A stretch of DNA of 42,774 bases from Candidatus Caldarchaeum subterraneum (GCA_937934305.1 CALHAG010000004.1:1-42774), one strand, 5' to 3'; positions 26,406-42,774 are shown, counted from the first letter of the stretch. Numbers and translations are program-made. The notes: a model not told the origin generated them from the letters alone.

Positions 26406-26420
26406 AAAAGCTTAGCTTTT
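26406..26420 (-). terminator. Possible terminator after nitroreductase
   Basis: A short perfect palindrome, AAAAGCT-T-AGCTTTT, spans the nitroreductase stop codon and is followed on the minus strand by a T-run (CTTTTT). In archaea a T-run alone can end transcription, so the stem may be incidental. Confidence 0.3.
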
Positions 26421-26933: not shown

Positions 26934-26965
26934 GTCTCCAGCTTGGCGCGACCTGTTAATAATGT

Positions 26966-27799
26966 CTACACTGTTTTGGAGGCGGCTTCTTCTAGGAGTT
27001 GGTAGATTTTGGCATAGCCTTTCACGAGTTTTTTGGTCTGTAGCTGTTTGAAGATTCTTGACGCTGTCGAGGGATTGTTTCTAAACTGGTTTAGTGTTTT
27101 CACCGCGTCTGTTAAGGTTTCTTCGGTGTATGGGTTTTTCTCGGTGATTTCTTTGAAGAGGTTGGGGCTTTCGCTGAGCATTGGTGAGGCGACCAGCATG
27201 AGGGCTTTTTGGCTGACTGTGAGAGGCTTCACATCAGCCATGCTCCAGCTCTTGAGCAGGGCAAGGATCAAGAGCCGCGGCAAAGCCATCGCCGAAGCCA
27301 TCTTCCTGTCGTGTGTTTCGACGCTCATCCGCAATATTTTGCATGGATGGAAAACTTCTTCGCAGACTCTGTATTCTTCGATTGGTTTTCTGAACGGGAT
27401 GAAAACGATGTTTTTGTCCTTTAGTTTTTTGGTTCCTGGGCCAAATAGAGGGTGAACAAGAACAACCATGTTGCTGTTGCTTTGATGTTTGGCGAGTGCC
27501 TTGGCCACCGGTGTTTTGATCGAGGAGATGTCGAGGATTGTTTTTCCGCTGACTGTAGACATTAGCTTTGGCAGGAGGGCGGCTGCGTTAGAAGCCCCGA
27601 CCGCTAACACGATTAGGCTGCTGGTGGAAAGAGCTTCTTTCAGGGATTTCGCTGCCGAGATTCCATAGCCCTCTATCTTTTTTAGCTTGTTCCTGTTTTT
27701 GTCATATATCGCTACGCTGTAACCTCTTCTTGCAAGGTTTCGCGCCATCCAGAGACCCATGGGACCTGCGCCGATGACAAGGGCCCTTTTCCTATCCAC
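26966..27799 (-). CDS. tyrA: Prephenate dehydrogenase family protein (TyrA)
   Basis: NAD(P)-dependent oxidative decarboxylation of prephenate, or of arogenate, in tyrosine synthesis. The 277-residue protein has the Rossmann motif ALVIGAGPMGLWMARNLA at 6-23, DISSIKTPVAKAL near 95-107, and VHPLFGPGTK near 118-127, all typical of TyrA. The helical C-terminal dimerisation domain follows. The GTG start at 27799 overlaps the upstream chorismate mutase-aminotransferase gene by 8 nt, so the two are coupled. The pairing with an aminotransferase leaves open whether prephenate or arogenate is the substrate. Confidence 0.88.
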   Translation of the reverse strand: MDRKRALVIGAGPMGLWMARNLARRGYSVAIYDKNRNKLKKIEGYGISAAKSLKEALSTSSLIVLAVGASNAAALLPKLMSTVSGKTILDISSIKTPVAKALAKHQSNSNMVVLVHPLFGPGTKKLKDKNIVFIPFRKPIEEYRVCEEVFHPCKILRMSVETHDRKMASAMALPRLLILALLKSWSMADVKPLTVSQKALMLVASPMLSESPNLFKEITEKNPYTEETLTDAVKTLNQFRNNPSTASRIFKQLQTKKLVKGYAKIYQLLEEAASKTV

Positions 27800-29198
27800 G
27801 TGCCCTACCTTTTTCCGCGATAAACTCGCCGAGAAGCCTGATTCCTTTAACTATCGACTCGTCGGGTGCTCCCAGAGAGATTCTGATAAAATCGTCGTAG
27901 CCTCCAAACAGTGAACCCGGCGCAACCGCTACACCTTTTGACTCAAGTAATTCAAAGGCAGTTGCCATGGCGTCTTCGCCCAGTTTCCCTATGCGGGGAA
28001 AGACATACATCCCTCCGTCTGGCCTATAAAATTCTGCCCCGATTTTCTCGAGCTCGTGAACAGCCTTCTCCATCCTACGCATCATAATGGCCGCATATTC
28101 TTTCGGCGCATCCCGGAGACCCAGGGCCGTCAGAGCTCCTCTCTGAATAAACTCTGGAACACATGTGATGACTAAGCCGATTATCGACGCCATCTTCGCT
28201 ACAAGATTTTTGTCGGCGATGACGTATCCGATTCTATAGCCTGTCATTCCATAGCTCTTCGAGAAGGATTGTATCAAGACATGTTGTTTCCCAAGGTCGT
28301 TGTCGAGTATGCTGACGTGTCCGTCTCGGACGTAGTCTGCGTAGACCTCGTCGCTTATGACGGTGATGCCGTGGTCTGTGGCGAGTTCGACGAGTTTGTT
28401 GAAGGTTGTTCGGTCGAGGATTTTTCCAGTGGGGTTGTTGGGGTAGTTGAGGATGATTGCCTTGGTTGAGGAGCTGATGTGTCTTTCTACTGCGTCGATG
28501 GACGGTGTCCAGCCGTCTTCAAACAATGTCTTGACGTGCACAGACCTTGCTCCCACAAACGGGGCCACCTGCCTGTACATCGGCCAAGACGGGTCTATGA
28601 CGAGAAGCTCATCACCCTCACGCAGTAAAGTTTTGGCTGCGAGGTAGATGGCGAACCTTCCACCGGGGGTGATAACCACGTTTTCAGGAGTTATCTCGAA
28701 CCCATGCTTTTCATAAACTTGGTTGACTATCTGTGCACGCAGCTCAGCAAGCCCACGTGAGTCTATGTATCTTGCGTATCCCTCCAAAAGAGCGTTCGCT
28801 GCAGAGTGTCTTACCTCCGGCGGCGCGCCTAGGTCTGGTTCACCGACTTCGAGTCTCTGAACCTCGCGCCCGTTTTTCTGAAGCTCGACAGCTCTTCTCA
28901 AAATGTCGAAATGTGTGAGCTTCTGTTTTGGTGTTGACGTCTGTTGCTCAACTGCGTCAGAGAAGATAATGGTTGCTATGCGGTTGATGGTTTCTTCGGG
29001 TATGCCGTGTTTAGCGGCTTCTTCAAGCATGGCTCTTCTAACCTCTTTCTCGACATCGGGTGCAACAGCTTCCACCCCCAGTGTTTTTTTATGCTCTGCA
29101 ATTTTGTTCACTATCTCTCTACGAGCTGCGAGCACCTTCACAAGCTCCACCGCTAGACGACGTGACTCAGCCCGCAGAGTCGTCAAATCCATCTCCAT
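27792..29198 (-). CDS. Chorismate mutase-aminotransferase fusion
   Basis: A 468-residue two-domain protein. Residues about 5-85 match an AroQ chorismate mutase: LRAESRRLAVELVKVLAARREIVNKIAEHK in pieces, giving the helix-1 Arg residues and Lys, then a long second helix. Residues about 95-465 form a fold-type I aspartate-type aminotransferase with the PLP lysine in SFSKSYGMTGYRIGY near 310-324, NYPNNPTGK near 255-263, and the carboxylate Arg in FIRISLGAP. The fusion would make prephenate and transaminate either prephenate or the later keto acids. The start is ATG 29198, with ATG 29192 next. It leads the tyrA operon. Confidence 0.88.
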   Translation of the reverse strand: MEMDLTTLRAESRRLAVELVKVLAARREIVNKIAEHKKTLGVEAVAPDVEKEVRRAMLEEAAKHGIPEETINRIATIIFSDAVEQQTSTPKQKLTHFDILRRAVELQKNGREVQRLEVGEPDLGAPPEVRHSAANALLEGYARYIDSRGLAELRAQIVNQVYEKHGFEITPENVVITPGGRFAIYLAAKTLLREGDELLVIDPSWPMYRQVAPFVGARSVHVKTLFEDGWTPSIDAVERHISSSTKAIILNYPNNPTGKILDRTTFNKLVELATDHGITVISDEVYADYVRDGHVSILDNDLGKQHVLIQSFSKSYGMTGYRIGYVIADKNLVAKMASIIGLVITCVPEFIQRGALTALGLRDAPKEYAAIMMRRMEKAVHELEKIGAEFYRPDGGMYVFPRIGKLGEDAMATAFELLESKGVAVAPGSLFGGYDDFIRISLGAPDESIVKGIRLLGEFIAEKGRARG

Positions 29199-29227
29199 GG
29201 CTGTACCAGTCGTGTAAATTGGCTACC

Positions 29228-29234
29228 TTTAAAT
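29228..29234. promoter_or_regulatory. Symmetric TATA box shared by two divergent genes
   Basis: CTTTAAATT has a self-complementary TTTAAA core. It is centred 28 nt before ATG 29259 on the plus strand and about 33 nt before ATG 29198 on the minus strand. No other TATA-like sequence is seen in the 60-bp gap, so one element may serve both directions. Confidence 0.4.
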
Positions 29235-29258
29235 TGTTCTGCTGCAAATGTTAAATCG

Positions 29259-30092
29259 ATGAGATTCTTTTTAGGATTACTTCTTCTCGTGCTGATGTTT
29301 TTCTCTACGGCGACGGGTTTTGAGAAGGATAACTATTTTTCGTATAGTTATGTGTTGACGAAAAGCGATGGTGAAACGGTCTCTGGAGAGTTCTCCCTCT
29401 CCGTGCTCGATGTTTTGCCTGATGGGAGGCTGCGTCTAAGAGGCGTGGCAACATTCAACGACGGTGTCGCTACAATTGAGAAGAATGTGCCGAGCAGCTA
29501 CTTTTCCCCACCTGCCGTGGACTTGTCTGCCTATGAGGGTGTGTACAGCTTCCGCAGAGATAACGTTAGTCTAACCCTTTCTGTCGAGAAGGTGGGCGAG
29601 GAGCTTAGAGCGGTCTCAGGCTTTGAGTATGTGACTGAGGTTTATCGTGTGTCCGCGACTGTGGATAGAGTTGGTGAATCTGCGAGGCTTGAGGGAGTTA
29701 TCGAAAACATCGCCTCCTCAAAGGTTGTTTACAGTGTTGACCTTGTCTACACAGAAACGGGACAGAAAACAGCATCATTCAAGATGAGCCTCAGGGAAAG
29801 CAATGTAGATCTCTCAGCATTCAACATCACCGCAGCCATCTCACCATTCTCTCTCACAGCCACGCCTGCTTCATTTTTCGCAGCGTTTCCATCTGTCTCT
29901 GGAGAATTCTTCGAGATGGGTGGGCAGCGGATTGTTGTTCAGGAACAAGCCACAGCTTCCTCGGCTTACTTTGACAGAGTCGGGGCGGTGCTGGCCGCTG
30001 GGCTGGCGACAATAGGTGCTGTATCATTTTTGAGCATGCGGAGAAAAGGGAGAGCCGCGGAGCCTGGGGAGAGAAAGGCTCACTATGTCTAA
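29259..30092 (+). CDS. Exported membrane-anchored protein of an ABC system, function unknown
   Basis: A 277-residue protein with an N-terminal signal peptide (MRFFLGLLLLVLMFFSTATG, residues 1-20), an extracellular beta-rich region of about 215 residues, and one C-terminal membrane helix near 243-260 (VGAVLAAGLATIGAVSFLSM) followed by a basic tail. This is a type I membrane topology. I do not recognise the extracellular domain. It overlaps the ABC ATPase gene by 8 nt, so it probably works with that transporter. ATG 29259 lies 28 nt from the TATA box, fitting a leaderless start. Confidence 0.7.
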   Translation: MRFFLGLLLLVLMFFSTATGFEKDNYFSYSYVLTKSDGETVSGEFSLSVLDVLPDGRLRLRGVATFNDGVATIEKNVPSSYFSPPAVDLSAYEGVYSFRRDNVSLTLSVEKVGEELRAVSGFEYVTEVYRVSATVDRVGESARLEGVIENIASSKVVYSVDLVYTETGQKTASFKMSLRESNVDLSAFNITAAISPFSLTATPASFFAAFPSVSGEFFEMGGQRIVVQEQATASSAYFDRVGAVLAAGLATIGAVSFLSMRRKGRAAEPGERKAHYV

Positions 30093-31029
30093 GAACCCCG
30101 TCGTAGTCGTCGACTCTTTCACCAAGGTTTACGGTGATGGAACAAGAATAGGCCCCATAACCCTACATGTAGGCGAGGGGGAGGTTTATGGTCTCGTGGG
30201 GCCCAACGGCTCAGGCAAAACCACCACTCTACGCGCCATACTGGGATTGCTGAAACCCAGCGGAGGAAAAGTATCTGTCTACGGGTTAAACCCATACAGC
30301 CACCCGGAGAAAGTCAACCAGAAGATAGGCTACTCCCCCGAAATTCCAAACTATCCACCATTCTTCACCGCCGAGAAACTTCTTCGCGTAACATGCAACA
30401 TGAAAAAAATTATCGGAAAAGACGCTGATAACGAGGTTAGGCGGATTCTTGACTTGACGGGGTTAGTTAACCACGCCGACAGAAAAATCGGAAACTTCTC
30501 AAAAGGTATGGTGCAGCGTCTCTCCATCGGACAAGCTCTGGTAGGAGACCCTCCCCTACTCATCCTCGACGAGCCGATGCTCGGAGTAGACCCCGTCGGC
30601 AGAGCCCACATCCGCGACGTTCTACTCCAGCTCAGAAAACAGGGCAAAACCATCATCTTCTCCTCACACGAGCTTTACGAAGTTCAGAGACTTTCCGACC
30701 GAGTAGCCATGGTCTACATGGGTAAAACCGTCTTCGAAGACATGGTAATGAACATATTAAACAACAGTCCAGAAACCAAGGTTGTTGCTGAGCTTGTCTC
30801 TGAGCCAGACGGGAAACTCGCCAAAGCTCTTGAAGAAATTTCCGGCGTTCTCGAAGTCGCCTTCGAAGCAAACAAAGTCGTCATCTCCGTCGACTCCTCA
30901 CTCGACCCACGTGAAAAAATCGCAGAAAAAATTGTAAACCTCGGCTACGGGTTAAGAGAGTTCAGGATATCACAGCCCTCCCTTGAAGAGGTGTTCATCA
31001 ACAGGGTGAAGGAATCTGTCAGCGGCTAA
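30085..31029 (+). CDS. ABC transporter ATP-binding protein
   Basis: ATPase of an ABC-2-type exporter, 314 residues. Walker A is GPNGSGKTT at 39-47, the signature is NFSKGMVQRLSIGQAL (FSKGM in place of LSGGQ, common in this subgroup), and Walker B is PLLILDEPMLGVDP near 156-169 followed by the switch SSHELYEV. The last 80 residues are a C-terminal domain typical of CcmA/NatA-like proteins. It overlaps the previous exported-protein gene by 8 nt, and the permease start probably lies inside its 3' end. The exported substrate is unknown. Confidence 0.93.
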   Translation: MSKNPVVVVDSFTKVYGDGTRIGPITLHVGEGEVYGLVGPNGSGKTTTLRAILGLLKPSGGKVSVYGLNPYSHPEKVNQKIGYSPEIPNYPPFFTAEKLLRVTCNMKKIIGKDADNEVRRILDLTGLVNHADRKIGNFSKGMVQRLSIGQALVGDPPLLILDEPMLGVDPVGRAHIRDVLLQLRKQGKTIIFSSHELYEVQRLSDRVAMVYMGKTVFEDMVMNILNNSPETKVVAELVSEPDGKLAKALEEISGVLEVAFEANKVVISVDSSLDPREKIAEKIVNLGYGLREFRISQPSLEEVFINRVKESVSG

Positions 31030-31858
31030 AGTCCCTCTCATCCTCATAGAGTATGAGCTGCGAAAAAGCCTTGCACGGCGAAGGGTTCTGATACTAGTGG
31101 CCATAACTTTTCTCCTCGAATTAGGCCTATATCTTGTGTTGACGAGGCTGCCGCCGCAGTTTATAGAAACCTTCTCTGGAGCGGCTTGGACGCTGGGGAT
31201 AATAGCCCCATCTGCAGGCCTTCTTCATGTGCTCGCCCTCACCATAGGCTCCTCCACCTCGGCGGAGGAGTATGAACTGGGAACAGCGGACTACTGGATG
31301 ACACGGCCCCTTAAGAGAAGCAGCTACTTCCTCGGCAAAACAGTCGGCGGCCTAGTCCTTCTATTCCTAATCGTCTTCACCTACTCCATACTCTCCCTCT
31401 CGGTGTCATGGTATGTTTTCGGGCCGCAGAGCAAAGTTGAGATATTTCCCATAGCCCTCGCGGCTTCTATAGCCTCGGCCGCACCCTTCTACGCGATTGG
31501 TCTCGCTTTTGGAGAGCTTCTGAGGAGAAGCATGATGTCGACCATTGTTGCGGGAGCAGTTTTCTTCGCGTCGGTCTTGGTCGAAACCTATGCAAACTTC
31601 GTTGCCTTAATCGCGGGAGACTTGACGCTCCGAGAGGTTGTGAGATTTCTACCCTCATGGGCTTCTACGGGGCTGACACCTACCATCTTAACCGACGCCC
31701 TGGGACTGAGCTTAAACACACCCGGCGCCCCCTTCACCGGTTTAGGTGCCGAGAACCTGTGGCTCGCCGCGGCAAGCATCTTCATATACTCCACCGTGTT
31801 TTTCCTCATTGCGTGGCTTCGGTTCAGACACAGCGACGTGACGCGTAGGGCTCTCTGA
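31016..31858 (+). CDS. ABC-2-type permease, probable CTG start
   Basis: Integral membrane partner of the preceding ATPase. The first ATG/GTG/TTG in the frame is GTG 31097, but the frame is open back to 31010, and those upstream codons encode LILIEYELRKSLARRRVLIL, the amphipathic N-terminal helix usual in ABC-2 permeases. A GGTGA ribosome site at 31005-31009 sits 6 nt before CTG 31016, so I choose CTG; the protein then has 280 residues. There are about six hydrophobic segments, and SAEEYELGTADYWMTRPLKRS is the cytoplasmic loop typical of the family. Confidence 0.72.
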   Translation: MSAAKVPLILIEYELRKSLARRRVLILVAITFLLELGLYLVLTRLPPQFIETFSGAAWTLGIIAPSAGLLHVLALTIGSSTSAEEYELGTADYWMTRPLKRSSYFLGKTVGGLVLLFLIVFTYSILSLSVSWYVFGPQSKVEIFPIALAASIASAAPFYAIGLAFGELLRRSMMSTIVAGAVFFASVLVETYANFVALIAGDLTLREVVRFLPSWASTGLTPTILTDALGLSLNTPGAPFTGLGAENLWLAAASIFIYSTVFFLIAWLRFRHSDVTRRAL

Positions 31859-31906
31859 AGTTAAGGTTTTTACCTTGGCTCAAGACCCATAGTTGGTTAG
31901 ACCGCG

Positions 31907-32224
31907 ATGACGCAAATAGTGAGAATCAAAGTGACCAGCACAAACCTCTCTAAGCTCGAGGAGGTGTGCAGAGAGATAAGGGACATCGCTGAGAAAACAG
32001 GCACCAAGATATCGGGACCCATACCTCTTCCAGTGAAAAAACTGGTTATACCCACCCGCAAATCCCCATGCGGAGAGGGTACTAAAACATGGCGAAAACA
32101 TCAGATGCGTATACACCGTAGGCTGATAGACCTCGGCATAACCGACCAGAGAGTGATGCGTCAGATAATGCGGATACAGATACCCGATGACGTTGCTATT
32201 GAGATGCAGATGACGACAAAATAA
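31907..32224 (+). CDS. rps10: 30S ribosomal protein S10
   Basis: A 105-residue protein, the normal archaeal uS10 length. Diagnostic segments are IVRIKVTSTNLSKLEEVC, SGPIPLPVKKLVIPTRKSPCGEG in pieces, and RIHRRLIDLGITDQRVMRQIMRI. It is alone on the plus strand and convergent with EF-1alpha, separated by 18 AT-rich bases. In many archaea tuf and rps10 are adjacent and co-directional, so this is a rearranged order. Confidence 0.96.
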   Translation: MTQIVRIKVTSTNLSKLEEVCREIRDIAEKTGTKISGPIPLPVKKLVIPTRKSPCGEGTKTWRKHQMRIHRRLIDLGITDQRVMRQIMRIQIPDDVAIEMQMTTK

Positions 32225-32242
32225 AAAAATAAAGAAAATTGT

Positions 32243-33541
32243 TTATTGGGCTGTTTCGGTTATCTCTTTCACCACACCTGCCGCAACGGTCATTCCGCTG
32301 TCTCTTATGGCGAAGCGCCCCAGCTCAGGCGACACGCTTGCCGGCTCCAGTGCGACTGGGTTCAGCGGCCTTAGTCTCACAACCGCTACGTCACCGGTCT
32401 TGATGAAAGATGGGTTCTTCTCCGTTACCTGGCCTGTCCTCGGGTCCATCTTTTGGATAAGCTCAACAAACTTGACAGCGGTTTGCGCCGTGTGTATGTG
32501 GAGAACCGGCGTGTATCCAACAGCTATGGCCGTCGGATGATAGATGACGTATATCTGTCCGATGAACTCTTTGGCCACGGGTATGGGTGTATCGGGCTTT
32601 GTGACAACCATTCCTCGGGACAGCTGGTTCTTCTCAACACCCTTCAGGTTGAACCCGATGTTGTCGCCGGGAATCGCCTGCTGAAGCGACTGATGATGCA
32701 TCTCTATCGACTTGACCTCAGCCTTCAACCCCCCTGGATAAATCGCCACTATGTCGCCCGGTTTCAAAATCCCTTGCTCAACTCTCCCAACTGGGACAAC
32801 TCCAACGCCTTTGATTGAGTAGACACCCTGAATCGGTATCCTCAGAGGCTTGTCTATAGGCTTTGGCGGCTCCTCCAGCATGTCCAACGCCTCGAGTAAG
32901 GTGGGGCCGTTGTACCAAGGCATGTTGGAGCTTTTCTCGGTCAGGTTGTCTCCCAGCCAGCCGGATACAGGTATGAAGTTTATCTTGGCGATGTTGTAGC
33001 CGATGGTTTTTAGAAGGTCACCAGCCATCTGTTTAACTTCTTCATACCTTTCCTTCGACCAGTTCACCGAGCTATCGTCCATCTTGTTTATAAGGACAAT
33101 AATCTGCCTGATGCCGAGAACGAAAGAGAGGTAGGCGTGTTCACGGGTCTGTCCGCCTGGAGCTATGCCGACCTCAGCCTCGCCCTTCTTCGCGGAGACA
33201 ACCAATATCGCTGCGTCAGCTTGGCTTGCTCCTGTAATCATGTTCTTGACGAAGTCTCTGTGCCCAGGCGCGTCGATCAGCGTGAAGTAATATTTCCTTG
33301 TCTCAAATTTCTGGAAGGCAAGGTCTATTGTTAGCCCTCTCTCCCTCTCCTCCTTAACCCTGTCAAGCACCCAAGCATACTTGAAGCTCTCCTTGCCTAT
33401 CTTCTTCGCCTCCTCCTCGTAGGTCTTCAGCGTGCGTTCGTCGATAGCCCCCATCTTGTATAGAAAATGACCCATCGTCGTCGATTTTCCGTGGTCAACG
33501 TGTCCTATGACCACAAGGTTCATGTGTGGTTTTGCCGACAT
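32243..33541 (-). CDS. tuf: Elongation factor 1-alpha
   Basis: GTPase that delivers aminoacyl-tRNA to the ribosome. From ATG 33541 it has 432 residues. GHVDHGKST, GLTIDLAFQKF, DAPGHRDFVKNM and NKMD are the GTPase motifs. The C-terminal barrels contain the EF-1alpha-type MHHQSLQQAIPGDNIGFN. A TTG at 33547 would add two residues. ATG 33541 is preferred, and a strong TATA box lies 29 nt upstream. Confidence 0.96.
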   Translation of the reverse strand: MSAKPHMNLVVIGHVDHGKSTTMGHFLYKMGAIDERTLKTYEEEAKKIGKESFKYAWVLDRVKEERERGLTIDLAFQKFETRKYYFTLIDAPGHRDFVKNMITGASQADAAILVVSAKKGEAEVGIAPGGQTREHAYLSFVLGIRQIIVLINKMDDSSVNWSKERYEEVKQMAGDLLKTIGYNIAKINFIPVSGWLGDNLTEKSSNMPWYNGPTLLEALDMLEEPPKPIDKPLRIPIQGVYSIKGVGVVPVGRVEQGILKPGDIVAIYPGGLKAEVKSIEMHHQSLQQAIPGDNIGFNLKGVEKNQLSRGMVVTKPDTPIPVAKEFIGQIYVIYHPTAIAVGYTPVLHIHTAQTAVKFVELIQKMDPRTGQVTEKNPSFIKTGDVAVVRLRPLNPVALEPASVSPELGRFAIRDSGMTVAAGVVKEITETAQ

Positions 33542-33564
33542 CGTCAATCCCCTATAATTCCCCC

Positions 33565-33574
33565 TTTATATATT
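33565..33574 (-). promoter_or_regulatory. TATA box of EF-1alpha
   Basis: The minus strand reads AATATATAAA, the best-looking TATA sequence in the window, centred about 29 nt before ATG 33541. This fits high expression of the elongation factor. Confidence 0.6.
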
Positions 33575-33603
33575 CTGCCTTAGATTGACCAGGGACGTGG
33601 TGT

Positions 33604-34074
33604 TTAATGGGTGTGCTGGGAACCGGCTCCGGTGGGCTGGGCGTAGAAGTGGATGACTTTGCCGCTCTCCATCTTGAGATGTACGTGGAAGCTGTCGAAA
33701 TGCTCTAGTTCGCCGAAGACCATGACATGGTATCCCTCTCCCTCGGCTCCACGCATTTTAACCGTGCTGAAAGGCTCGACACAGACCTTGTCAACCTTCA
33801 CCATCTTCATGACATTGTCCTCCATGACCGTTCTGTGGAGCTCGGCCAGAAGAACCTCCTCACCCATGTGTCCCTCGCCCAAAACCTCCACACCTACAAC
33901 ACAGTCCCGCAGAAACCCTCTGTTGTGAAGGTCAAAGAAGATTCCGGCGCTGTTTGTGCCTTTTCTCATAGATATGTCGGAAACCTCAGGCAGAGAACCC
34001 ACACCAAAGACAACGGCGAAAGCCACAGCGGCCGCAACAAGAACAGCCACACCTATGTATAATGCTTTGACCAC
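33604..34074 (-). CDS. PCuAC-type copper chaperone, membrane anchored
   Basis: A 156-residue protein with an N-terminal hydrophobic anchor (residues about 4-27) and a cupredoxin-like PCuAC domain outside the membrane. The copper motif is visible: an His and several Met residues in ELHRTVMEDNVMKM, then GYHVM (the HxM pair), and a downstream HVHL. In bacteria, PCuAC delivers copper to cytochrome oxidase. Presence here would suggest a heme-copper oxidase elsewhere in the genome. It ends with a His-rich tail (GSQHTH). The start is GTG 34074. It follows EF-1alpha's promoter region on the same strand but is an independent gene. Confidence 0.82.
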   Translation of the reverse strand: MVKALYIGVAVLVAAAVAFAVVFGVGSLPEVSDISMRKGTNSAGIFFDLHNRGFLRDCVVGVEVLGEGHMGEEVLLAELHRTVMEDNVMKMVKVDKVCVEPFSTVKMRGAEGEGYHVMVFGELEHFDSFHVHLKMESGKVIHFYAQPTGAGSQHTH

Positions 34075-34104
34075 GTCTTTCTATCCCTCTCGAATAATTT
34101 AAAC

Positions 34105-35052
34105 CTATTTTTTCAAGAACCTTTTGGCATCACCTACAGGATACAGAACCGGATAAGTTACACCAGCGTCGACAAATTCTCCAATTTTTCTGCGAATTGT
34201 TTTGAGGGAGCCGATGCATGCCAATTCCTCAAGCACTTCATCATCCACCAATTCAGCCGCTTTTCCCGTCTCACCTCTTGACACAAGCAAGCTTAGTTTC
34301 TCAACATCTACCTTGTTGAACAAATAAATAGGGAGAGATTGTTTAGCCCGGCCTGGCCATGAGAGAAAAACAGCAGCCAATTCTTTTAATTGTTGAATGT
34401 GCTTCTCTGAAGCCGTTGCCAACAACCCCATAAACTCGAAATCATCACGTCGAGCCGAGAGCCCACGTGCGGTCTTAATCACCGCTGTTGATTTTTTTAC
34501 AGATTCGGGTGACAGGAATATGGAGAAGATTACTCCATCGCCGTACCTGGCGGCTGCTCTAAGCATTTGTTCACCCACAGCAGCCATGAATATTTTCGGG
34601 GAGCTTGTAGGCCTCATGATATGGTGAAGATGGGAGCGAAACCTTTCGCCTTCGAAATGGGAGCTCCCTCCAAATATTTGTCTACAAATTTTTACAGCCT
34701 CAACCATCGACCTCACAGGCTTGTCATTAACGATGCCGAGAGAGCTTCTAAGCTGGGTCAAATCACCTAAACCAAGTCCCAATGTAAAGCGGCCTCCTGA
34801 AACATCGTTCAGAGTCGCGGCTGCGAGAGCTGTTACCGCTGGATGACGGAGGTTTATGCTAACCACCGCCGTTCCAAGCCTTATCTTAGAAGTCTTCGCC
34901 GCTATCGCCCCCAGTAACGAGAAGGCTTCACCGCCATTCAAATGTTCAGGAACCCAAACAGAATCGTATCCAACCTCTTCCGCGGAAACACCGCATGCCA
35001 CGGTCTTAGCCCTCCCAATAAACTCCGGAACAAGAGCGATACCAAGCCGCAT
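34105..35052 (-). CDS. Luciferase-like flavin-dependent oxidoreductase
   Basis: A 315-residue LLM-class TIM-barrel protein using FMN or F420. It begins MRLGIALVPEFIGRAK and has EEVGYDSVWVPEHLNG, RLGTAVVSINLRHPAVTALAAATLNDVSGGRFTLGLGLG in pieces, the characteristic family core, followed by PKIFMAAVGEQMLRAAARYGDG. F420-dependent reductases of the Mer kind and flavin monooxygenases both belong here; I cannot decide which. It is divergent from the UbiD gene across a 83-nt gap with a TATA box 27 nt upstream of ATG 35052. Its place beside the UbiD/enamidase cluster suggests a redox step on a ring compound. Confidence 0.87.
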   Translation of the reverse strand: MRLGIALVPEFIGRAKTVACGVSAEEVGYDSVWVPEHLNGGEAFSLLGAIAAKTSKIRLGTAVVSINLRHPAVTALAAATLNDVSGGRFTLGLGLGDLTQLRSSLGIVNDKPVRSMVEAVKICRQIFGGSSHFEGERFRSHLHHIMRPTSSPKIFMAAVGEQMLRAAARYGDGVIFSIFLSPESVKKSTAVIKTARGLSARRDDFEFMGLLATASEKHIQQLKELAAVFLSWPGRAKQSLPIYLFNKVDVEKLSLLVSRGETGKAAELVDDEVLEELACIGSLKTIRRKIGEFVDAGVTYPVLYPVGDAKRFLKK

Positions 35053-35075
35053 AGCTACTGGACGCGGAATACCTG

Positions 35076-35082
35076 TTTATAA
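35076..35082 (-). promoter_or_regulatory. TATA box of the LLM oxidoreductase gene
   Basis: The minus strand reads TTATAAA, centred 27 nt before ATG 35052. On the opposite strand, AAATAAATAAAA at 35101-35112 is the likely TATA box for the UbiD gene, centred about 29 nt before ATG 35136. Both point to leaderless transcripts. Confidence 0.5.
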
Positions 35083-35135
35083 CGATTCAAATAAAATCGT
35101 AAATAAATAAAAGCATCATGCTATGCCTTCGAATT

Positions 35136-36488
35136 ATGAAAGACATGCGCCACTATCTCGAAGACCTTAGACAAAATTATCCAGAGGAATTTGTGAAAAT
35201 CTCAGAGCCGGTCTCACATGAATATGAGATAACCGCTGTCTGGAAAATGTTTGAGCGAAAAGGTAATCCCGTCTTGTTTTTTGAAAAAGTTCACGGCTAT
35301 GATATGCCTGTTGTCGCCAACATCTTTGGCTCAAGGGCTCGTGTGGCGAGGATGATTGGCTCTGATGTGTGGAATTTTTATGATAAATGGCTTGAGCGGA
35401 CAAGGGCTGGTGTTGAACCAGAGTATGTTTCAACTGGTCCTGTCAAGGAGGTGAAATATTTTTCTAACGATGTAGACTTGAGCATATTGCCTGCTCTGAA
35501 GTTCTTTGTAGAAGATGGTGGCCGATACATAACCGCGGGAATAGTTGTCGCAAACCATCCTGAAACCGGTGAAGTGAACCTGAGCTATGCGAGACTGATG
35601 GTTAAGGATAGGAACAAACTCGGAGTCAGCATACATTCTCGAGGTAACCTATGGAGATACTTTAACAGAGCCACCGAGCTTGGGCGACCATGGCTCAACG
35701 TTGCCGTGATTATCGGATGTCATCCTACACTCTACCTTGCCGCAGCCACTAGAACAACCGATGAATACAAATTGGCTGGCGCCCTCTGCTCAGAGCCGGT
35801 TAAACTGGTTAAATGTGAAACAAATGAAGTATATGTGCCCTATAACGCGGAGATAGTTCTCGAGGGCCGAATATTGACCAATGTCTATGAAGACGAGGGG
35901 CCCTTTTCGGAGTATACCGGCTACGTCTCGGGCCGCTCAACCCGCAACGTTATGGCTATTGACTGCATAACACATCGTATGAACCCCATATTTCAAACAA
36001 TCATCCCTACCAACTCGTCTGAACATCTTCTACTCGGCGGCCTACCAATGCAGGCCAATGTATACAAAAAACTTAAGGAATCCATTCCTGAGGTCAGGAG
36101 CATCAACTTCCCAGTATGGGGAACACATTTAGTCGCAATTCTTTCCGTGGATAAGGAGTGGAAAGAAGGGGTCCAGATACGGGCCGCCATGCTTCTGATG
36201 GGAGCCAATCCTTACGTGAAATATGTTATCCTCGTGGACGACGACATAGATGTATTTGACGAGATGCAAGTGCTTTGGGCAGTTGCCACACGCAGCCAGC
36301 CAGACCGTTGTATACACTTGTTCCCCATAACTGACGGGAACATGCTTGACCCTTCTCAGGAAAAAGCGGGCTTCACAAGCAGAGCTGTCATAGACGCCAC
36401 CTCTCCACCTCATTGGAAAAACGCGCAGGTAAATGTTCCGAGCTTGCCTCGGGATGTTGTTGAAAAAGTTCAAAAGATGTTTAAATAG
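35136..36488 (+). CDS. UbiD-family prenylated-FMN decarboxylase
   Basis: From ATG 35136 it has 450 residues. UbiD enzymes remove or add CO2 on aromatic, heteroaromatic or unsaturated acids with prenylated FMN. The catalytic Arg-Glu-Glu set looks intact: Arg in LGVSIHSRGNLW, and two Glu residues in EDEGPFSEYTGY near 250-262, plus the metal-binding DDDIDVFDEMQVLWAVATR near 367-385. No UbiX-type prenyltransferase is in the window; it must be elsewhere. ATG 35118 is also in frame, but it lies too close to the TATA box. The gene leads a run with two ECF ATPases and an enamidase homolog. Confidence 0.9.
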   Translation: MKDMRHYLEDLRQNYPEEFVKISEPVSHEYEITAVWKMFERKGNPVLFFEKVHGYDMPVVANIFGSRARVARMIGSDVWNFYDKWLERTRAGVEPEYVSTGPVKEVKYFSNDVDLSILPALKFFVEDGGRYITAGIVVANHPETGEVNLSYARLMVKDRNKLGVSIHSRGNLWRYFNRATELGRPWLNVAVIIGCHPTLYLAAATRTTDEYKLAGALCSEPVKLVKCETNEVYVPYNAEIVLEGRILTNVYEDEGPFSEYTGYVSGRSTRNVMAIDCITHRMNPIFQTIIPTNSSEHLLLGGLPMQANVYKKLKESIPEVRSINFPVWGTHLVAILSVDKEWKEGVQIRAAMLLMGANPYVKYVILVDDDIDVFDEMQVLWAVATRSQPDRCIHLFPITDGNMLDPSQEKAGFTSRAVIDATSPPHWKNAQVNVPSLPRDVVEKVQKMFK

Positions 36489-36497
36489 CCGCTTAAA

Positions 36498-37376
36498 ATG
36501 TGGGGCATAGTGGATAAGATACCTATAGAGATAAAGTCCTTCTGGTGGAAATACGCGACAAGCGAGGAATGGGTTTTATCAGATATCAACTTCTCCGTCC
36601 GGGAGGGGGAATTTGTGGTAATTACAGGACCAACGGGTGCTGGCAAGACAACCCTATGCCTCACGATGGCGGGCCTCATTCCTTATCATTACAACGGCAC
36701 TTTGAAGGGAAGAGTGTATGTCTTCGGAAAAGACACTACCACCCTGGGCAGCTCTGACATGGCCAGCTTGGTTGGCATTGTTTTCCAAGACCCTGAAAGC
36801 CAGTTTCTGACGATGTCTGTCGAAGATGAGATAGCCTTCGGACTTGAAAACCTTGCACTGCCCTTAGAGGATATGCGGGAGAGAGTCTACGAGGCTGCCA
36901 GGCTTGTTAAGGTCGAGGATTTGTTGGAAAGGGCGCCTTATGAGCTGTCCGGTGGTCAGAAACAACGTGTCGCTATAGCTGCAGCCCTCGCCATGAAGCC
37001 TAAGGTCCTAGTTCTCGACGAGCCTACTGGTCAGCTTGACCCCATTGGAAAAGAGGAAGTGGTTAACGTTCTGCAGAGCCTAAAGAAACAGGGCATCACA
37101 ATAATCGTGGTTGAACATATTTTGGAGGAACTCGCACCCTTCACGGACAGACTTGTCGTGATGAATGGTGGCCGTATCCTCTATGACGGAGACTTCCGTG
37201 GTTTCTTCAAAGACGCTGAAGAGGTTTTCAAGTCTGGTGTGCCATCACCCCAAGTGGTTGAGTTGACTCTTCTCCTCAGAAGAGAACTGAAAAAAGAATT
37301 AGAGATACCTATAACATTAGAGGAGGCCGAGCAGATGTTGAACAAATTGATACCGGTGAAAAAGTTTGTCCAGTGA
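36498..37376 (+). CDS. ECF transporter ATPase, first (EcfA-like)
   Basis: Energy-coupling ATPase of a vitamin/nutrient importer, 292 residues. Walker A is GPTGAGKTT at 44-52, the Q-loop VFQDPESQFL, signature LSGGQKQR near 151-158, Walker B VLVLDEPTGQLDP near 171-183, and the switch His in VVEHILEE. All motifs are intact. Start is ATG 36498 (GTG 36510 possible), 9 nt after the UbiD stop codon. It overlaps the second ATPase by 11 nt. Confidence 0.92.
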   Translation: MWGIVDKIPIEIKSFWWKYATSEEWVLSDINFSVREGEFVVITGPTGAGKTTLCLTMAGLIPYHYNGTLKGRVYVFGKDTTTLGSSDMASLVGIVFQDPESQFLTMSVEDEIAFGLENLALPLEDMRERVYEAARLVKVEDLLERAPYELSGGQKQRVAIAAALAMKPKVLVLDEPTGQLDPIGKEEVVNVLQSLKKQGITIIVVEHILEELAPFTDRLVVMNGGRILYDGDFRGFFKDAEEVFKSGVPSPQVVELTLLLRRELKKELEIPITLEEAEQMLNKLIPVKKFVQ

Positions 37377-38211
37377 TGTTGTAGTCGAGGCAAAAAACCT
37401 CAGCCACGTTTACTCGAACGGAATAGTGGCTCTTAACAACATTAACATCACAATCAGACGCGGCGAATTTGTGGCCCTAATAGGTCATAATGGCTCCGGA
37501 AAAACAACCCTCGCTAAACACATAAATGGATTGCTAAAGCCGACAAGCGGGCAGATAATTGTCCATCGCATGGACACCCGTGAGGTATCCGTGGCAGACC
37601 TTGCCAAAAAAGTTGGATATGTTTTCCAAAACCCTGATCATCAACTATGTATGAAAACTGTTTGGGAGGAGTTGGCGTTCGGGCCAAGAAACCTCGGCAC
37701 ACCGGAGGACGAGGTCAAGCAAGTTGTCGACGAGATTCTAAGATTGTTCGGGCTTGAACGATACCGAGATGTTCACCCGTTTTTACTCAGCAGAGCAGAC
37801 AGGCTTAGAGTCGCGCTATGCAGTGTTTTGACAATGAGGCCCGAGACTCTTGTGGTCGACGAGCCCACCACTGGACAAGACATGAGACAGTCCTATGAGG
37901 TGATGGAGATACTGAAAAAACTTAACAAAGAAGGGAGAACTGTCGTGTTCATTACACATAACATGCGTTTGGTGGCTGAATACGCGGAGAGATGCATAAT
38001 TATGAAGGATGGGAAAGTTTTTATGGATAAGCCAACCCGGGAGGCGTTAACTGATTTTGAAAAACTCAGGCAAGCTCAGCTCAAGCCTCCACAGGTCACC
38101 ATTTTATCAGCACGTTTGGCAAACATCGGGTTTCATGAACCAGCTCTCTCAGTTAACGAATTTGTTGAAAATGTGAAGGCCTTTCTAAACAATAAATATA
38201 AATCTCTATAA
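37366..38211 (+). CDS. ECF transporter ATPase, second, with degenerate signature motif
   Basis: A 281-residue ATPase paired with the preceding one. Walker A GHNGSGKTT at 40-48, Q-loop VFQNPDHQLC and Walker B TLVVDEPTTGQD are normal and the switch is ITHNMRLV. The signature reads LLSRADRLRVAL near 140-151, so the two glycines of LSGGQ are replaced. The TTG 37366 start is supported by GGTGA at 37355-37359, 6 nt upstream. The pair likely forms an asymmetric ATPase heterodimer, with one weaker ATP site. It is followed 15 nt later by the enamidase homolog. Confidence 0.92.
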   Translation: MSSDVVVEAKNLSHVYSNGIVALNNINITIRRGEFVALIGHNGSGKTTLAKHINGLLKPTSGQIIVHRMDTREVSVADLAKKVGYVFQNPDHQLCMKTVWEELAFGPRNLGTPEDEVKQVVDEILRLFGLERYRDVHPFLLSRADRLRVALCSVLTMRPETLVVDEPTTGQDMRQSYEVMEILKKLNKEGRTVVFITHNMRLVAEYAERCIIMKDGKVFMDKPTREALTDFEKLRQAQLKPPQVTILSARLANIGFHEPALSVNEFVENVKAFLNNKYKSL

Positions 38212-38226
38212 TCCGATGAGGGCGGC

Positions 38227-39510
38227 GTGGTTACAACACTCGTAACAAACATAGGCAAGCTTGTTAGCGGAGATTGGGATAGGGGGATTCTGAAGGCGGA
38301 CACGGTGAAAATAGTTGACGGCATTATTCAGGATGTTGGGTATAGTGATGAAATTGGTAAAGGCCCGGCAGACGTTGTTATAGACGCCGACGGGATGACT
38401 GTGTCACCCACTTTCATCGACCCTCACACCCATCTATCCTTCGGCGACTTTTCGCCGATGCAGCACATGGTCGGTCTTCTCACCGAAACACTTTTGCAAG
38501 GAACAACAACCATCGTTGACGAGTGGCTGCAGTTTGAGGGGTTGCCGCTTTTCTATGGCGCCGACCCAGAGGGGGTGAAGGCGACAGCGGTTCTATCTCA
38601 CAAAGCATACCGAAACTATAGACCGGGAGGAGCTATGAAGGTCTTCGCAGGCTCCATAATGCTTGTCAAAGGGCTAACACGTGAAGATTTTGTGCAGCTA
38701 CGTAAGGCGGGGGTGTGGCGCGTCGGGCAGATAGGAGGCTCATCTAACATCAACGACCCAAAAAAGATTCAGGAAATGGTGTCATGGGCGCGAGAACTGG
38801 GGTACTTTGTTTCCACAAACCTCGGACCGGGGGTTTTGCCTGAGAGTTTAAACATGACCGCCGAGCTTGTCTCAGCGATAAAGCCGGACAAAATAGCTCA
38901 CATCAACGGCGGGACAACAGCACCACCTTGGGAAGTTGTTAAAGCCGCGATAGATGGAACCGGAGAAGCTAAACTCGAGATTATCCCATATGGAAACATG
39001 AAGATGGCGCTCCGCGTCTATGAATACCTAAAGTCCCGAAACCAGCTTAAGCGCCTAATTGTGGGGAGCGATACCCCAACAGGTCAGGGATACCTACCCG
39101 TGGCCATACACCGAGCCATCTTGTTCCTATCATCCGTATGCGGACTCCCCGCCGAAAAAGCCATAGCAACAGCGACAGGCAACATACTGGACTGCTACGG
39201 AAAATATTCCAGCGAGTTCAACATGGGAAAAATTGAGCCAGGCCGTGCCGGCGATCTTCTGGTAATGGATGCTCCTCCCGGAAGCGTGGGCAACGACGCG
39301 TTAGAAAGCATCGAAGCTGGTGACATGATAGGAATCGCAGGCGTAATCGTTGACGGAAACCTTGTCGGACTAAGGGGCAAAGACTCGAGACCAAGCCGCC
39401 GCAACATAAAGCTGAACAACAGACAACTTAAAGTCACATGCCCAGACGAGTATCTGTTTGACCCGCCGAGGTTTTACTACCGTAGCACCGGCCCCACATA
39501 TCTCCTCTAG
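38227..39510 (+). CDS. Enamidase-like amidohydrolase
   Basis: A 427-residue metal-dependent hydrolase. From memory it aligns over its length with enamidase of Eubacterium barkeri, which opens the tetrahydropyridone ring in nicotinate fermentation: NIGKLVSGDWDRGILKADT, the metal pair DPHTH (His67, His69), AYRNYRPGGAMKVFAG, KGLTREDFVQLRKAGVWRVGQIGG in pieces, HINGGTT near 225-231, GSDTPTGQGYLPVAIHR near 280-296, and GRAGDLLVMDAPPGSVGNDAL. Like other amidohydrolases it should hydrolyse a cyclic amide. The start is GTG 38227. It overlaps the convergent T-component gene by 4 nt. A related lactam hydrolase with another substrate is the alternative. Confidence 0.85.
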   Translation: MVTTLVTNIGKLVSGDWDRGILKADTVKIVDGIIQDVGYSDEIGKGPADVVIDADGMTVSPTFIDPHTHLSFGDFSPMQHMVGLLTETLLQGTTTIVDEWLQFEGLPLFYGADPEGVKATAVLSHKAYRNYRPGGAMKVFAGSIMLVKGLTREDFVQLRKAGVWRVGQIGGSSNINDPKKIQEMVSWARELGYFVSTNLGPGVLPESLNMTAELVSAIKPDKIAHINGGTTAPPWEVVKAAIDGTGEAKLEIIPYGNMKMALRVYEYLKSRNQLKRLIVGSDTPTGQGYLPVAIHRAILFLSSVCGLPAEKAIATATGNILDCYGKYSSEFNMGKIEPGRAGDLLVMDAPPGSVGNDALESIEAGDMIGIAGVIVDGNLVGLRGKDSRPSRRNIKLNNRQLKVTCPDEYLFDPPRFYYRSTGPTYLL

Positions 39511-40334
39511 AAAAATAAGAAGTTTGGGAACTGCAGCAACCCCAGCAGTACTGCGAGCACTATAACGAGATGTAGAGTAAATAGCCCGGCGACAACATAA
39601 TCCCTCATCCTCATAGGAATGATGTAGTACATGGTTTTCTTTCCGCGCACTTTGAACCCACGTGAGGCCATGGCGTTGCTCATCTCCTCTGTTCTTTTGA
39701 GAGATACGTATATCAACGGTATACCGACGCGGACGAATTTAGCCAGCCGTTGGATGGGGTTTCCTTTGCGGAAGTTGAGTCCACGGGAGCTCTGGGCATC
39801 TATGATGGTGAACAAGTCAACAGAGACAACTGCGAGATTGCGGAGAATAGATGCGAAGGTGAAGCTGACGACGTAGGGCAGCCTCCATGTCCTCAGGGCA
39901 ACGGCCAAGTCTCTGTGCTTGGTCGTCGCTAAGAGAAGCGCCGTTACGTAGCTGACCGCAAGGAATTTGAGTGCAACAAGCAGCCAAGCCATAAAATTCT
40001 CATAGCCTATCCTCAATGGACCGATGGTCGCTAAAACTGGACCAGAGCGTATGGGTGTGAAAAAACTATAGAAGATGAAGGAAACCAAAAGCATCCAACC
40101 TATGACAAAGGTGTAGAGACGAAGAGCCTTCGCCGGAACTCGTGCCACAACTACTGTGACCGCTATGAGTATAAGGTTGACGAGGGCGAGGCTATGGCTC
40201 GGAGTTAACAACGCGGCAAAACTAAACACAATTACGACAAACAGCTTAACCGCTGGATGAACTTTAACAAAAAAAGAGTTTTTAGGAGTGTAGAGGATTA
40301 AGCCCTTCAGGATGTCGCTGATTATGAACGCCAT
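39507..40334 (-). CDS. ECF transporter T component (EcfT/CbiQ family)
   Basis: Scaffold membrane protein of an ECF importer, 275 residues with about five to six hydrophobic helices. The two coupling-helix motifs that bind the ATPases are visible as SSRGLNFRKG and ASRGFKVRGK in the middle of the protein, each with the family Arg. LRTWRLPYVVSFTFASILRNLAVVSVDLF in pieces is typical of the CbiQ family. It starts with ATG 40334, 6 nt after the S-component stop codon, so S and T are co-transcribed. The ATPases are on the opposite strand, convergent, 1.3 kb away. Confidence 0.87.
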   Translation of the reverse strand: MAFIISDILKGLILYTPKNSFFVKVHPAVKLFVVIVFSFAALLTPSHSLALVNLILIAVTVVVARVPAKALRLYTFVIGWMLLVSFIFYSFFTPIRSGPVLATIGPLRIGYENFMAWLLVALKFLAVSYVTALLLATTKHRDLAVALRTWRLPYVVSFTFASILRNLAVVSVDLFTIIDAQSSRGLNFRKGNPIQRLAKFVRVGIPLIYVSLKRTEEMSNAMASRGFKVRGKKTMYYIIPMRMRDYVVAGLFTLHLVIVLAVLLGLLQFPNFLFF

Positions 40335-40340
40335 GATGTC

Positions 40341-40931
40341 TTAGATGAATTTCTCGATGTAGAGGGCTGTTCTCATCAAGTAGTCTGAGAAGACTTTGAA
40401 CAGTATTGTCGTGATGACGCCTACGACGACGACGTTGCTGCCGAACCAGCCGAGCCACGCAATTGGCCAGATTTCCCATGGAAAGACGCCGAAGGCTGCC
40501 AATGAGCCGGAACCTATCGTAGCGCCTACAGCTTGGGCTATTATCACGTTGAAGATAATGTGTCCCGTCCAGTCTTTACCGGATTTGAGACGTGGGTCAA
40601 ACTTGCCCAATCGAAACGCCAGCATCGGAATGAAGGCTTGGAAGAAGTCTCCCACAGCTACAGCCGCGGCTATGGGTGCCGAGGTTCCCGTCAGCACTAT
40701 GCCGATAAATGGCCCGAGAAAACCTCCAGCCAAGGCTCCGATTATTCCGAACCATACTCCGAAGCTCACTTGGAAGGCTACACCGGGATAGAACGATGAT
40801 ATCGGAGCAAGAAATGGAAAGACGATGCTTCCGAAAGCACCGAGAACTGCTGTGATGGCGGCGGAGACGATAAACAAGGCGACGAGAGTGGTTGGGCTTC
40901 TTCTCCTAACAATCCGCTCCTCGCTACTCAC
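40341..40931 (-). CDS. ECF transporter substrate-binding S component
   Basis: A 196-residue integral membrane protein with about six hydrophobic segments and a charged N-terminus (SSEERIVRRRSP). Its size, topology and position before the T component make it the substrate-capturing subunit. I recognise no known family such as ThiT, BioY, RibU or NiaX, so the imported compound is unknown. The start is GTG 40931, leaderless, set by the TATA box 27-28 nt upstream. The neighbouring enamidase suggests a nitrogen heterocycle or a related vitamin-like molecule. Confidence 0.75.
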   Translation of the reverse strand: MSSEERIVRRRSPTTLVALFIVSAAITAVLGAFGSIVFPFLAPISSFYPGVAFQVSFGVWFGIIGALAGGFLGPFIGIVLTGTSAPIAAAVAVGDFFQAFIPMLAFRLGKFDPRLKSGKDWTGHIIFNVIIAQAVGATIGSGSLAAFGVFPWEIWPIAWLGWFGSNVVVVGVITTILFKVFSDYLMRTALYIEKFI

Positions 40932-40954
40932 GTTTTATACCACGATATTTCATA

Positions 40955-40963
40955 GGTTATAAG
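40955..40963 (-). promoter_or_regulatory. TATA box of the S/T component operon
   Basis: The minus strand reads CTTATAACC, centred about 28 nt before GTG 40931, which fixes that start as leaderless. The 107-bp divergent gap up to 41039 also holds A+T-rich stretches near 40998-41006 that could be the promoter of the Mo-subunit gene. Confidence 0.5.
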
Positions 40964-41038
40964 CCTTTACAGAAAATTTTTGTGAAGACTAAAAACGTTA
41001 AATAAGATGCGGGGAAAACATAAAGGATATTTAAAGAC

Positions 41039-42774
41039 ATGTCAAAACGAGATGTTAGACATCTAACAGGTCGCGGCTCCTTCGTCGACGATATTGCTTT
41101 GCCGAATATACTTCGCTGCGTGTTCGTTAGAAGCAGTTACCCACACGCCTTTGTACGTGGTTTGAAAACGCCGCAGAACACTTCAGAAGCCAAAATATTC
41201 ACATGGAGTATGTTGAGTAAAATTGTGAGACCATTTTACCTTTCTTTCCCGTTTGAGGGATGCAGGAATTTGGAGGTTTCTCCCCTAGCCAACCAGCGGG
41301 TGAGATACGTGGGTGAGCCTGTGGCCGCTGTCGTGGCCGAGGACCTGTATGTGGCACAAGACGCTGCAAACAGTGTTGAAGTTGAGTATGAGCCGCTGCC
41401 GCGTGTTTCGGACATGTTCAGCTATGGGGATACGCTTTACGATGGATGGGATAATAACACGATGGTCAAGTTTTCGAGAAAATATGGAGACCCTTTTGGT
41501 GAGATGGAGAGAGCTGAGGTAGTTGTTGAGGAAAGAATAGCTACACATCGGGTGTGTCCCGCCCCTATGGAAACAAGGGGTGTGGTTGCAAGCTACGATG
41601 CTGGCCGCGGGTTTTTGACGGTTTGGTCGCCGAACCAGAACCCTCACATGCATAGGACCGTTCTATCAGAGGTTTTGAACCTTCCAGAGAGCAGGATAAG
41701 GGTGATATCTCCCGACATAGGAGGAGGATTCGGACAAAAAGGCCATACCTACGCTGAGGATGTTGTAGTCGCGGCCTTGTCAATTTTGACGGGTAGACCA
41801 GTCAAATGGATTGAAGAAAGACGCGAAAACTTCATGGCTGCAGCCCAGTCGAGAGAACAAGTTCACCTTGTCAAAATCGGGGCCGACAAGAATGGAAGAA
41901 TAAAATCACTCATAGACGAAGCATATCTCGACCTAGGCGCTTATCCCCTGATACCGCATAGCTATCTCGAGCTTGCCCATGTGGTAATAGACATGCTTCC
42001 AGGCCCATACCGCATAGAAAACTACGCCGCCGAAATCAGCCTAGTTGTAACAAACAAGACGCCGGCGGGTGCATACAGGGGCTTCGGCCATCCAGAAGCG
42101 ACCTTTGTTCGCGAAAGAGCGCTCGATATCTTAGCTGAAGAAATAGGACTAGACCCTGTCACGATAAGGAAGAGGAACCTTATCTCCGCATCCGACATCC
42201 CCTACATGGCTGCTACGGGGATGATTTTTGACAGCGGCAGGCCTTTAGAGACATTTGAAACACTTGTCCAACAAGCAGGTCATCATGACGGTGGAGATTG
42301 CGAGGTTGTTGGGGTTGGATATGCAGTTGGTGTGAAAGGCTCTGTTCCAACCATGAGCGGTGTATCGCAGCGCTGGGGTTCGAGCGAGGCCGCTATGGTC
42401 AGACTGTCTATGGACGGCAAACCTGTTGTGTTCTCTGGCGCAGTTTCTATGGGTACGCGTCTTGACAAACTCTTGGCCAAGATTGTATCCGAGATCTTGT
42501 CGGTGTCCGAGGAAGATGTAGAGGTAGTGTTGGGAGACACCTTGTCAACACCCTTCAGTACAGGCCTCTGGGGTAGCAGAGGAGCCGTTATGGTTGGCGG
42601 AGCCGTTGCCAAGGCCTCGACCATACTTCGCCGAAAAATTCAACACATCTCATCGATATTGTTCGAATGCAGGCCTGAGGATGTTATCCTCGAAAACGGT
42701 AAAGTGTTTGTCAAAGACGCCGTGGAAAACGGGCTAACCCTATCTGAGCTTGCGTGGAAGGTGTACAACAATCC
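41039..42774 (+). CDS. Molybdenum hydroxylase large subunit, second copy, partial (3' end beyond window)
   Basis: 578 codons are visible, with no stop before the right edge. It begins MSKRDVRHLTGRGSFVDDIALPN, the CoxL-type start, then VGEPVAAVVAED, VWSPNQNPHMHR, GGGFGQKG near 227-234, and AYRGFGHPEATF near 344-355. The loop is AYRGFG, not AYRCSFR, so this is not a CO dehydrogenase of form I; it fits hydroxylases of N-heterocycles, aldehydes or related substrates. FAD and 2Fe-2S partners are not in the window on this side. It is not a copy of the 11005-13188 gene: the N-terminal and loop segments differ. Confidence 0.9.
   Translation, partial: MSKRDVRHLTGRGSFVDDIALPNILRCVFVRSSYPHAFVRGLKTPQNTSEAKIFTWSMLSKIVRPFYLSFPFEGCRNLEVSPLANQRVRYVGEPVAAVVAEDLYVAQDAANSVEVEYEPLPRVSDMFSYGDTLYDGWDNNTMVKFSRKYGDPFGEMERAEVVVEERIATHRVCPAPMETRGVVASYDAGRGFLTVWSPNQNPHMHRTVLSEVLNLPESRIRVISPDIGGGFGQKGHTYAEDVVVAALSILTGRPVKWIEERRENFMAAAQSREQVHLVKIGADKNGRIKSLIDEAYLDLGAYPLIPHSYLELAHVVIDMLPGPYRIENYAAEISLVVTNKTPAGAYRGFGHPEATFVRERALDILAEEIGLDPVTIRKRNLISASDIPYMAATGMIFDSGRPLETFETLVQQAGHHDGGDCEVVGVGYAVGVKGSVPTMSGVSQRWGSSEAAMVRLSMDGKPVVFSGAVSMGTRLDKLLAKIVSEILSVSEEDVEVVLGDTLSTPFSTGLWGSRGAVMVGGAVAKASTILRRKIQHISSILFECRPEDVILENGKVFVKDAVENGLTLSELAWKVYNN

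Follow-up and report, generated by a model that had tools for sequence, protein, structure and literature searches.

The window analysed here, a stretch of 42,774 nucleotides, lies at the end of contig C4 in a genome (G000; 1.56 Mb, 97% complete) from a heat-loving archaeon related to Caldarchaeum. Eight genes were found in its right-hand part. LLM1, a luciferase-like flavin oxidoreductase, lies on the minus strand (34105-35052; PF00296, E 2.8e-56), and is followed on the plus strand by a UbiD-family decarboxylase (35118-36488; nearest PDB entries 6H6X and 6H6V), the two ATPases EcfA1 (36498-37376; TIGR04520, E 1.6e-73) and EcfA2 (37366-38211; TIGR04521, E 9.5e-79), and EnaL, an enamidase-family protein with an altered metal site (38227-39510). 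The transmembrane component EcfT (39507-40334; PF02361, E 1e-24) and the candidate substrate-binding component EcfS (40341-40931), which belongs to an unnamed family, are on the minus strand. MoL, a Mo-hydroxylase large subunit (41039-42774, plus strand; PF02738, E 2.9e-76), is cut at its 3' end, where the contig ends inside the gene at 42774. An earlier note on this DNA had named the same eight genes, and all of them are present and belong to the expected families, except that EcfS has no Pfam family. The gaps between UbiD, EcfA1, EcfA2 and EnaL are +9, -11 and +15 bases, respectively.

Two sister genomes were compared with G000: the nearer G002, one contig of 1,680,938 bases from the same genus, and the more distant G001. 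The DNA of G002 is 88% identical to window positions 26351-42774. The order UbiD-EcfA1-EcfA2-EnaL-EcfT-EcfS-MoL is kept in all three species, and the block proteins of G000 share 58-87% identity with those of the more distant sister. The left flank of the block is different in G001, which lacks LLM1 there; LLM1 adjoins UbiD in G000 and G002 only. Because the UbiD-to-MoL order recurs in two sisters at these identities, and with another left flank in G001, the block is beyond chance. The conserved neighbourhood that the earlier note had proposed to look for was thus found, and its gene block holds from UbiD to MoL, but in G001 not for LLM1.

Among the 61 near-relative genomes searched, the block with the window-type EnaL was found in three, G000, G001 and G002, and a close EcfS was likewise present only in these. 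A homologue 81% identical to EnaL is found in Candidatus Caldarchaeum sp. SKYG59, and the species of G001 was the sole match when genome contigs were searched with EnaL. Between G000 and G002, the lowest dN/dS values of the block were those of EnaL (0.029, indicating strong purifying selection), EcfS (0.031) and EcfT (0.035), and the same three proteins are the most similar to the distant sister (81%, 87% and 82% identity, respectively). These values suggest that the functional core of the block consists of the uptake genes and EnaL.

Family and metal site of EnaL

Compared with solved structures, EnaL matched the Eubacterium barkeri enamidase 2VUN at E 1.7e-77 (residues 3-395), and the next match had an E value of 3.1e-6. 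Its full-length homology is therefore closer to enamidase than to other amidohydrolases. In the phylogenetic tree, the three window-type EnaL proteins formed one clade with a support of 100/100 inside the enamidase group, and this group was split from the ATZ/TRZ and hydantoinase-type outgroups with modest support (89/78) and long branches nearby. The alignment and the tree, which the earlier note had proposed as a check, place the protein in the enamidase family and not with dihydroorotase or hydantoinase.

The metal ligands of 2VUN (H67, H69, E164, H193, H220 and D276) were used as the reference, and the corresponding positions in EnaL (all on the plus strand) were taken from the alignment. 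The HxH motif (H67 and H69; 38425-38433) is kept in EnaL, as are H225 at the position of H220 (38899-38901) and D282 at that of D276 (39070-39072). In contrast, the bridging ligand E164 is replaced by Q168 (38728-38730) and H193 by N198 (38818-38820), and this Gln and Asn are present in all three species. EnaL also differs from the Eubacterium enzyme in having D98-E99 (38518-38523) instead of Ser-Ala, and about 30 extra conserved residues at the C-terminus. All of the 23 other family members examined have His at the position of H193. At position 164 they have Glu or Lys, apart from Haloarcula, in which an Ile is aligned there, and nearly all of them carry Ser-Ala at 98-99, where the window clade has Asp-Glu.

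The region around the HxH motif and D98-E99 is nearly invariant. Between G000 and G001, only 1 of the 50 sites in residues 64-113 differs, as compared with 82 of 427 overall (P 1.6e-4, for a segment picked after inspection), which argues against decay of EnaL. The predicted structure of EnaL, made from a two-row alignment, had a pLDDT of 37, which is too low for judging the geometry of the ligands. Because EnaL is without two of the six metal-holding residues of the known enamidase, it probably works in a different way. It is probably a paralog with a rebuilt, mononuclear metal site, in which D98 or E99 is a possible substitute carboxylate ligand.

Importer, Mo-hydroxylase, UbiD and flavin oxidoreductases

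Two ATPases, a T component and an S component lie together in the block, as in ECF transporters of the dedicated type, and the set is repeated in G001 and G002. EcfA1 has intact Walker A and LSGGQ motifs, whereas EcfA2 has a degenerate signature, LSRADRLR for LSGGQ, which is degenerate in G001 too; this difference suggests an asymmetric ATPase pair. EcfT has two xRG coupling motifs. For EcfS, PDB profile searches gave nothing credible, and the protein falls in no family of known substrate. Its name comes from the pairing with EcfT and EcfA in the block and in other Thermoproteota. The predicted structure of EcfS had a pLDDT of 53 (two-row alignment). With a threshold of E 1e-3, 49 of 398 Thermoproteota genomes have a relative of EcfS.

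The neighbourhoods of the EcfS relatives were inspected. In G030, a genome of the same order, an S-family ECF system (G030:C4:43001-63000; L082) lies amid an amino-acid-kinase-family gene, two carbamoyltransferase-family genes, a hydantoin-racemase-family gene and an amidohydrolase gene, and the amino-acid-kinase-family protein is read as carbamate kinase. Crenarchaeal S components of a long type, at eight loci (L069-L072, L075, L076, L078 and L079), adjoin a conserved divergent gene, which by eye was read as a phosphoribosyltransferase-type regulator. Another relative of the S family, at 5534-10896 of L083 in G012, is located beside a corrinoid protein and a trimethylamine-methyltransferase-like protein, also read by eye. 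These neighbourhoods may be taken as leads to a small nitrogen compound, not as proof.

MoL is complete in G002 and G001 (774 and 777 aa, respectively). The best PDB match of the full-length orthologs was quinoline 2-oxidoreductase (1T3Q_B, E 4e-113), and the catalytic Glu (KGVGE) is kept in both of them. Beyond MoL in these two genomes lie AH1, an ATZ/TRZ-type aminohydrolase with SsnA-like affinities, then LLM2, a second LLM oxidoreductase, and then the convergent AH2, a second ATZ/TRZ-type aminohydrolase near the 5'-deoxyadenosine and 8-oxoguanine deaminases, which in G001 is truncated where the contig ends. The earlier note had proposed a search to the right of MoL for an FAD subunit, a 2Fe-2S subunit and a ring reductase; none was found there in G001 and G002, where the contigs extend beyond the block, and AH1, LLM2 and AH2 were found instead. 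G000 and G002 have 15 large-subunit matches each against 5-6 FAD subunits, and six 2Fe-2S matches were counted in G000. Because large subunits exceed the FAD and 2Fe-2S genes, subunit sharing looks to be a genome-wide feature of the Mo-hydroxylases. When G004 and G005 were counted together with G000 and G002, the numbers were 14-19 large-subunit matches and 5-6 FAD subunits per genome. A second Mo-hydroxylase set is present in the window at 9698-13188, where the FAD and 2Fe-2S subunits (plus strand) converge on a large subunit (minus strand).

The UbiD of the block keeps, in three species, the Arg and the two Glu of the E-R-E active-site network described for this family (PMC8988006), together with the EDEGPFSEY motif, and its dN/dS was about 0.11. 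G000 and G002 have no other UbiD, and G001 has eight UbiD matches. UbiX (TIGR00421) and any other PF02441 protein were absent from G000 and from the single-contig G002, in searches with positive controls, and UbiX is present in G001. The cofactor made by UbiX has been reported to be strictly required for UbiD activity (PMC6541611). Any decarboxylation by the UbiD of the block would thus need a further assumption in G000 and G002, and is regarded here as putative.

The best NCBIfam model for LLM1 was Mer-like, but the match was under the cut-off. CofH, which is needed for F420, was detected only below the model cut-off in G000, G001 and G002, and it is therefore more likely that the LLM enzymes are FMN-dependent, or that F420 is scavenged. 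Several LLM oxidoreductases of these three genomes resemble F420-dependent families despite the lack of a CofH above the cut-off. An F420-dependent reductase was considered as a stand-in for 6-hydroxynicotinate reductase, and this idea is weakened by the missing CofH.

A second enamidase locus and known pathways

A search for 6-hydroxynicotinate reductase gave no match in four Caldarchaeaceae genomes (G000, G002, G004 and G005), while the Sulfitobacter control (W01) was found. Because of this absence, the textbook nicotinate route is unsupported, and we rejected it. The Mo-hydroxylase of that pathway has FAD and 2Fe-2S subunits in its locus, whereas the large subunit stands alone in G001 and G002. 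The bacterial nicotinate clusters of Sulfitobacter and Comamonadaceae have an enamidase-family gene in common with the window block, with a Mo-hydroxylase nearby in Sulfitobacter, but they also have 6-hydroxynicotinate reductase and AA_synth proteins, and in L049 an annotated FAD subunit, none of which is in the block. A literature search for Caldarchaeum together with nicotinate found nothing; in one genome paper on the Caldarchaeales, F420 appears once, and xanthine, UbiD and nicotin- do not appear.

Another enamidase paralog of G000 (G000:C2:18501-19643; L011 and L036 with neighbours) has all six ligands, is 39% identical to EnaL and is located between a MoL gene and an LLM gene. Downstream of it are a Liv-type ABC importer, an AA_synth protein (PF06684) and an aldehyde dehydrogenase. 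AA_synth is also found beside enamidase-family genes in Thermomicrobium, Mariluticola, Agrobacterium, Comamonadaceae, Shinella, Mesorhizobium and Sulfitobacter. This C2-type locus shares a Mo-hydroxylase, an enamidase-family protein, an LLM enzyme and an importer with the window block. It differs in its six-ligand enamidase, in the lack of ECF, UbiD and ATZ/TRZ genes, and in its distribution, since seven genomes (G000-G005 and G007) have the MoL-enamidase-LLM trio and three have the block. The C2 locus fits the idea of the earlier note better than the window block does.

The reductive urate pathway of E. coli offers a comparable logic of a Mo enzyme, a flavin reductase and SsnA, by analogy (PMC12507026). 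In that pathway SsnA, a relative of AH1, cleaves the reduced purine ring. A Mo-hydroxylase family and an SsnA-like aminohydrolase are common to the two systems; in contrast, the window block has an ECF importer and an enamidase paralog, and no YgfK, YgeW or YgeX was seen in it.

Interpretation of the block

The earlier note had read the locus as a pathway for the uptake and degradation of N-heterocycles on the model of nicotinate fermentation. Much of this reading is retained: the enamidase family, the conserved neighbourhood, the Mo-hydroxylase, which proved nearest to quinoline 2-oxidoreductase and has its catalytic Glu in the sister copies, and the ECF importer, whose S-family relative in G030 sits in a hydantoin/carbamoyl-transfer cluster. 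Three of its proposals are not supported in the form in which they were drawn. The enamidase step meets two replaced metal-ligand positions in all three species, the nicotinate-type pathway has neither its reductase nor the expected FAD and 2Fe-2S genes, and ring decarboxylation by UbiD lacks its cofactor enzyme in two genomes.

We consider, with a probability of about 0.5, that the block is a lineage-specific, co-inherited unit of Caldarchaeum by which a small N-heterocycle is imported through a dedicated ECF transporter and broken down, and in which EnaL is an enamidase paralog with a rebuilt metal site. The ECF transporter would import a small nitrogen heterocycle, and MoL would hydroxylate its ring. 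AH1 and/or AH2 may then strip exocyclic groups or open a ring, an LLM flavoenzyme may carry out a redox step, and EnaL may cleave a ring at a C-N bond. Having lost the bridging Glu and one His, EnaL would do so with a single metal bound by HxH and Asp, to whose binding D98/E99 may contribute. The content, order and conservation of the genes, their families, the ligand replacements and the purifying selection are observed; the substrate class, the order of these reactions, the one-metal chemistry and any activity of UbiD are inferred. The affinity of MoL to quinoline 2-oxidoreductase, the hydantoin/carbamoyl cluster of G030, the neighbours of the long-type S components and the kinship of AH1 with SsnA count for an N-heterocycle. 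Against this explanation, no gene for an FAD or 2Fe-2S partner lies close to MoL, which would depend on shared subunits, UbiD has no UbiX in G000 and G002, and just 3 of the 61 near genomes searched have the block. A bolder form, in which a mononuclear site of HxH, Asp and the new D98/E99 carboxylate opens an N-heterocycle by non-enamidase chemistry, and the ECF importer serves a substrate class new in archaea, is tentative and on balance unlikely.

Other functions of EnaL must be weighed against this reading. Its full-length alignment with 2VUN, its placement on the tree and the adjoining MoL would all suit an ordinary enamidase in a block for nicotinate-type degradation. This is highly improbable, considering E164Q and H193N in three species, the His193 kept by every other member examined, the absence of 6-hydroxynicotinate reductase from four genomes of the family and the full-ligand enamidase at another locus. 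With two of its six ligand positions replaced, EnaL could also be a paralog without catalytic activity that serves in binding or regulation, but HxH, H220 and D276 are retained and the segment with HxH and D98-E99 belongs to the best conserved parts of the protein, so that we regard this as clearly improbable. It is quite unlikely that EnaL is a non-hydrolytic ring opener, such as a mononuclear-iron dioxygenase. A precedent is given by KpiC of Arthrobacter, an amidohydrolase-family 3,4-dihydroxypyridine dioxygenase that opens the ring with O2 and has enamidase as its nearest characterised relative, and one metal site is lost in the aminopeptidase-like dioxygenase NicX (PMC7356986). The retained HxH and Asp of EnaL resemble a 2-His-1-carboxylate triad, and both KpiC and EnaL belong to the amidohydrolase family near enamidase. 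However, neither EnaL nor the rest of the block specifically indicates O2 chemistry.

Two further alternatives concern the compound that is taken up. That the block degrades a purine-like compound, in analogy to the urate pathway with its XdhD, YgfK and SsnA (PMC12507026), is doubtful but deserves some weight: AH1 is SsnA-like, AH2 is near the 5'-deoxyadenosine and 8-oxoguanine deaminases, and hydantoin-type genes are next to the ECF relative in G030. On the other hand, no gene like YgfK, YgeW, YgeX or HyuA was recognised within the block, MoL is nearer to quinoline oxidoreductase than to XdhD, and ATZ/TRZ enzymes are broad in their substrates. The ECF system might instead import a cofactor resembling flavins, which could be prenylated FMN for UbiD, with the other genes as unrelated neighbours. 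ECF systems commonly transport vitamins, and the UbiD of G000 and G002 has kept its catalytic residues without UbiX or PF02441 in these genomes. This explanation is very unlikely, as G001 has both the block and UbiX, EnaL, MoL and the aminohydrolases are left unexplained, and we know of no description of prenylated FMN import.

G000 and G002 also pose a cofactor puzzle, with a UbiD under purifying selection and no UbiX. Independently of the window, the conserved MoL-enamidase-LLM cluster of the Caldarchaeaceae offers a candidate system, open to testing, for the breakdown of heterocycles in archaea. Provided that EnaL is active, it would be an enamidase-family enzyme that works although its canonical two-metal site has been partly lost, and an uncharacterised archaeal family of ECF substrate-binding components would be tied to the uptake of N-heterocycles.
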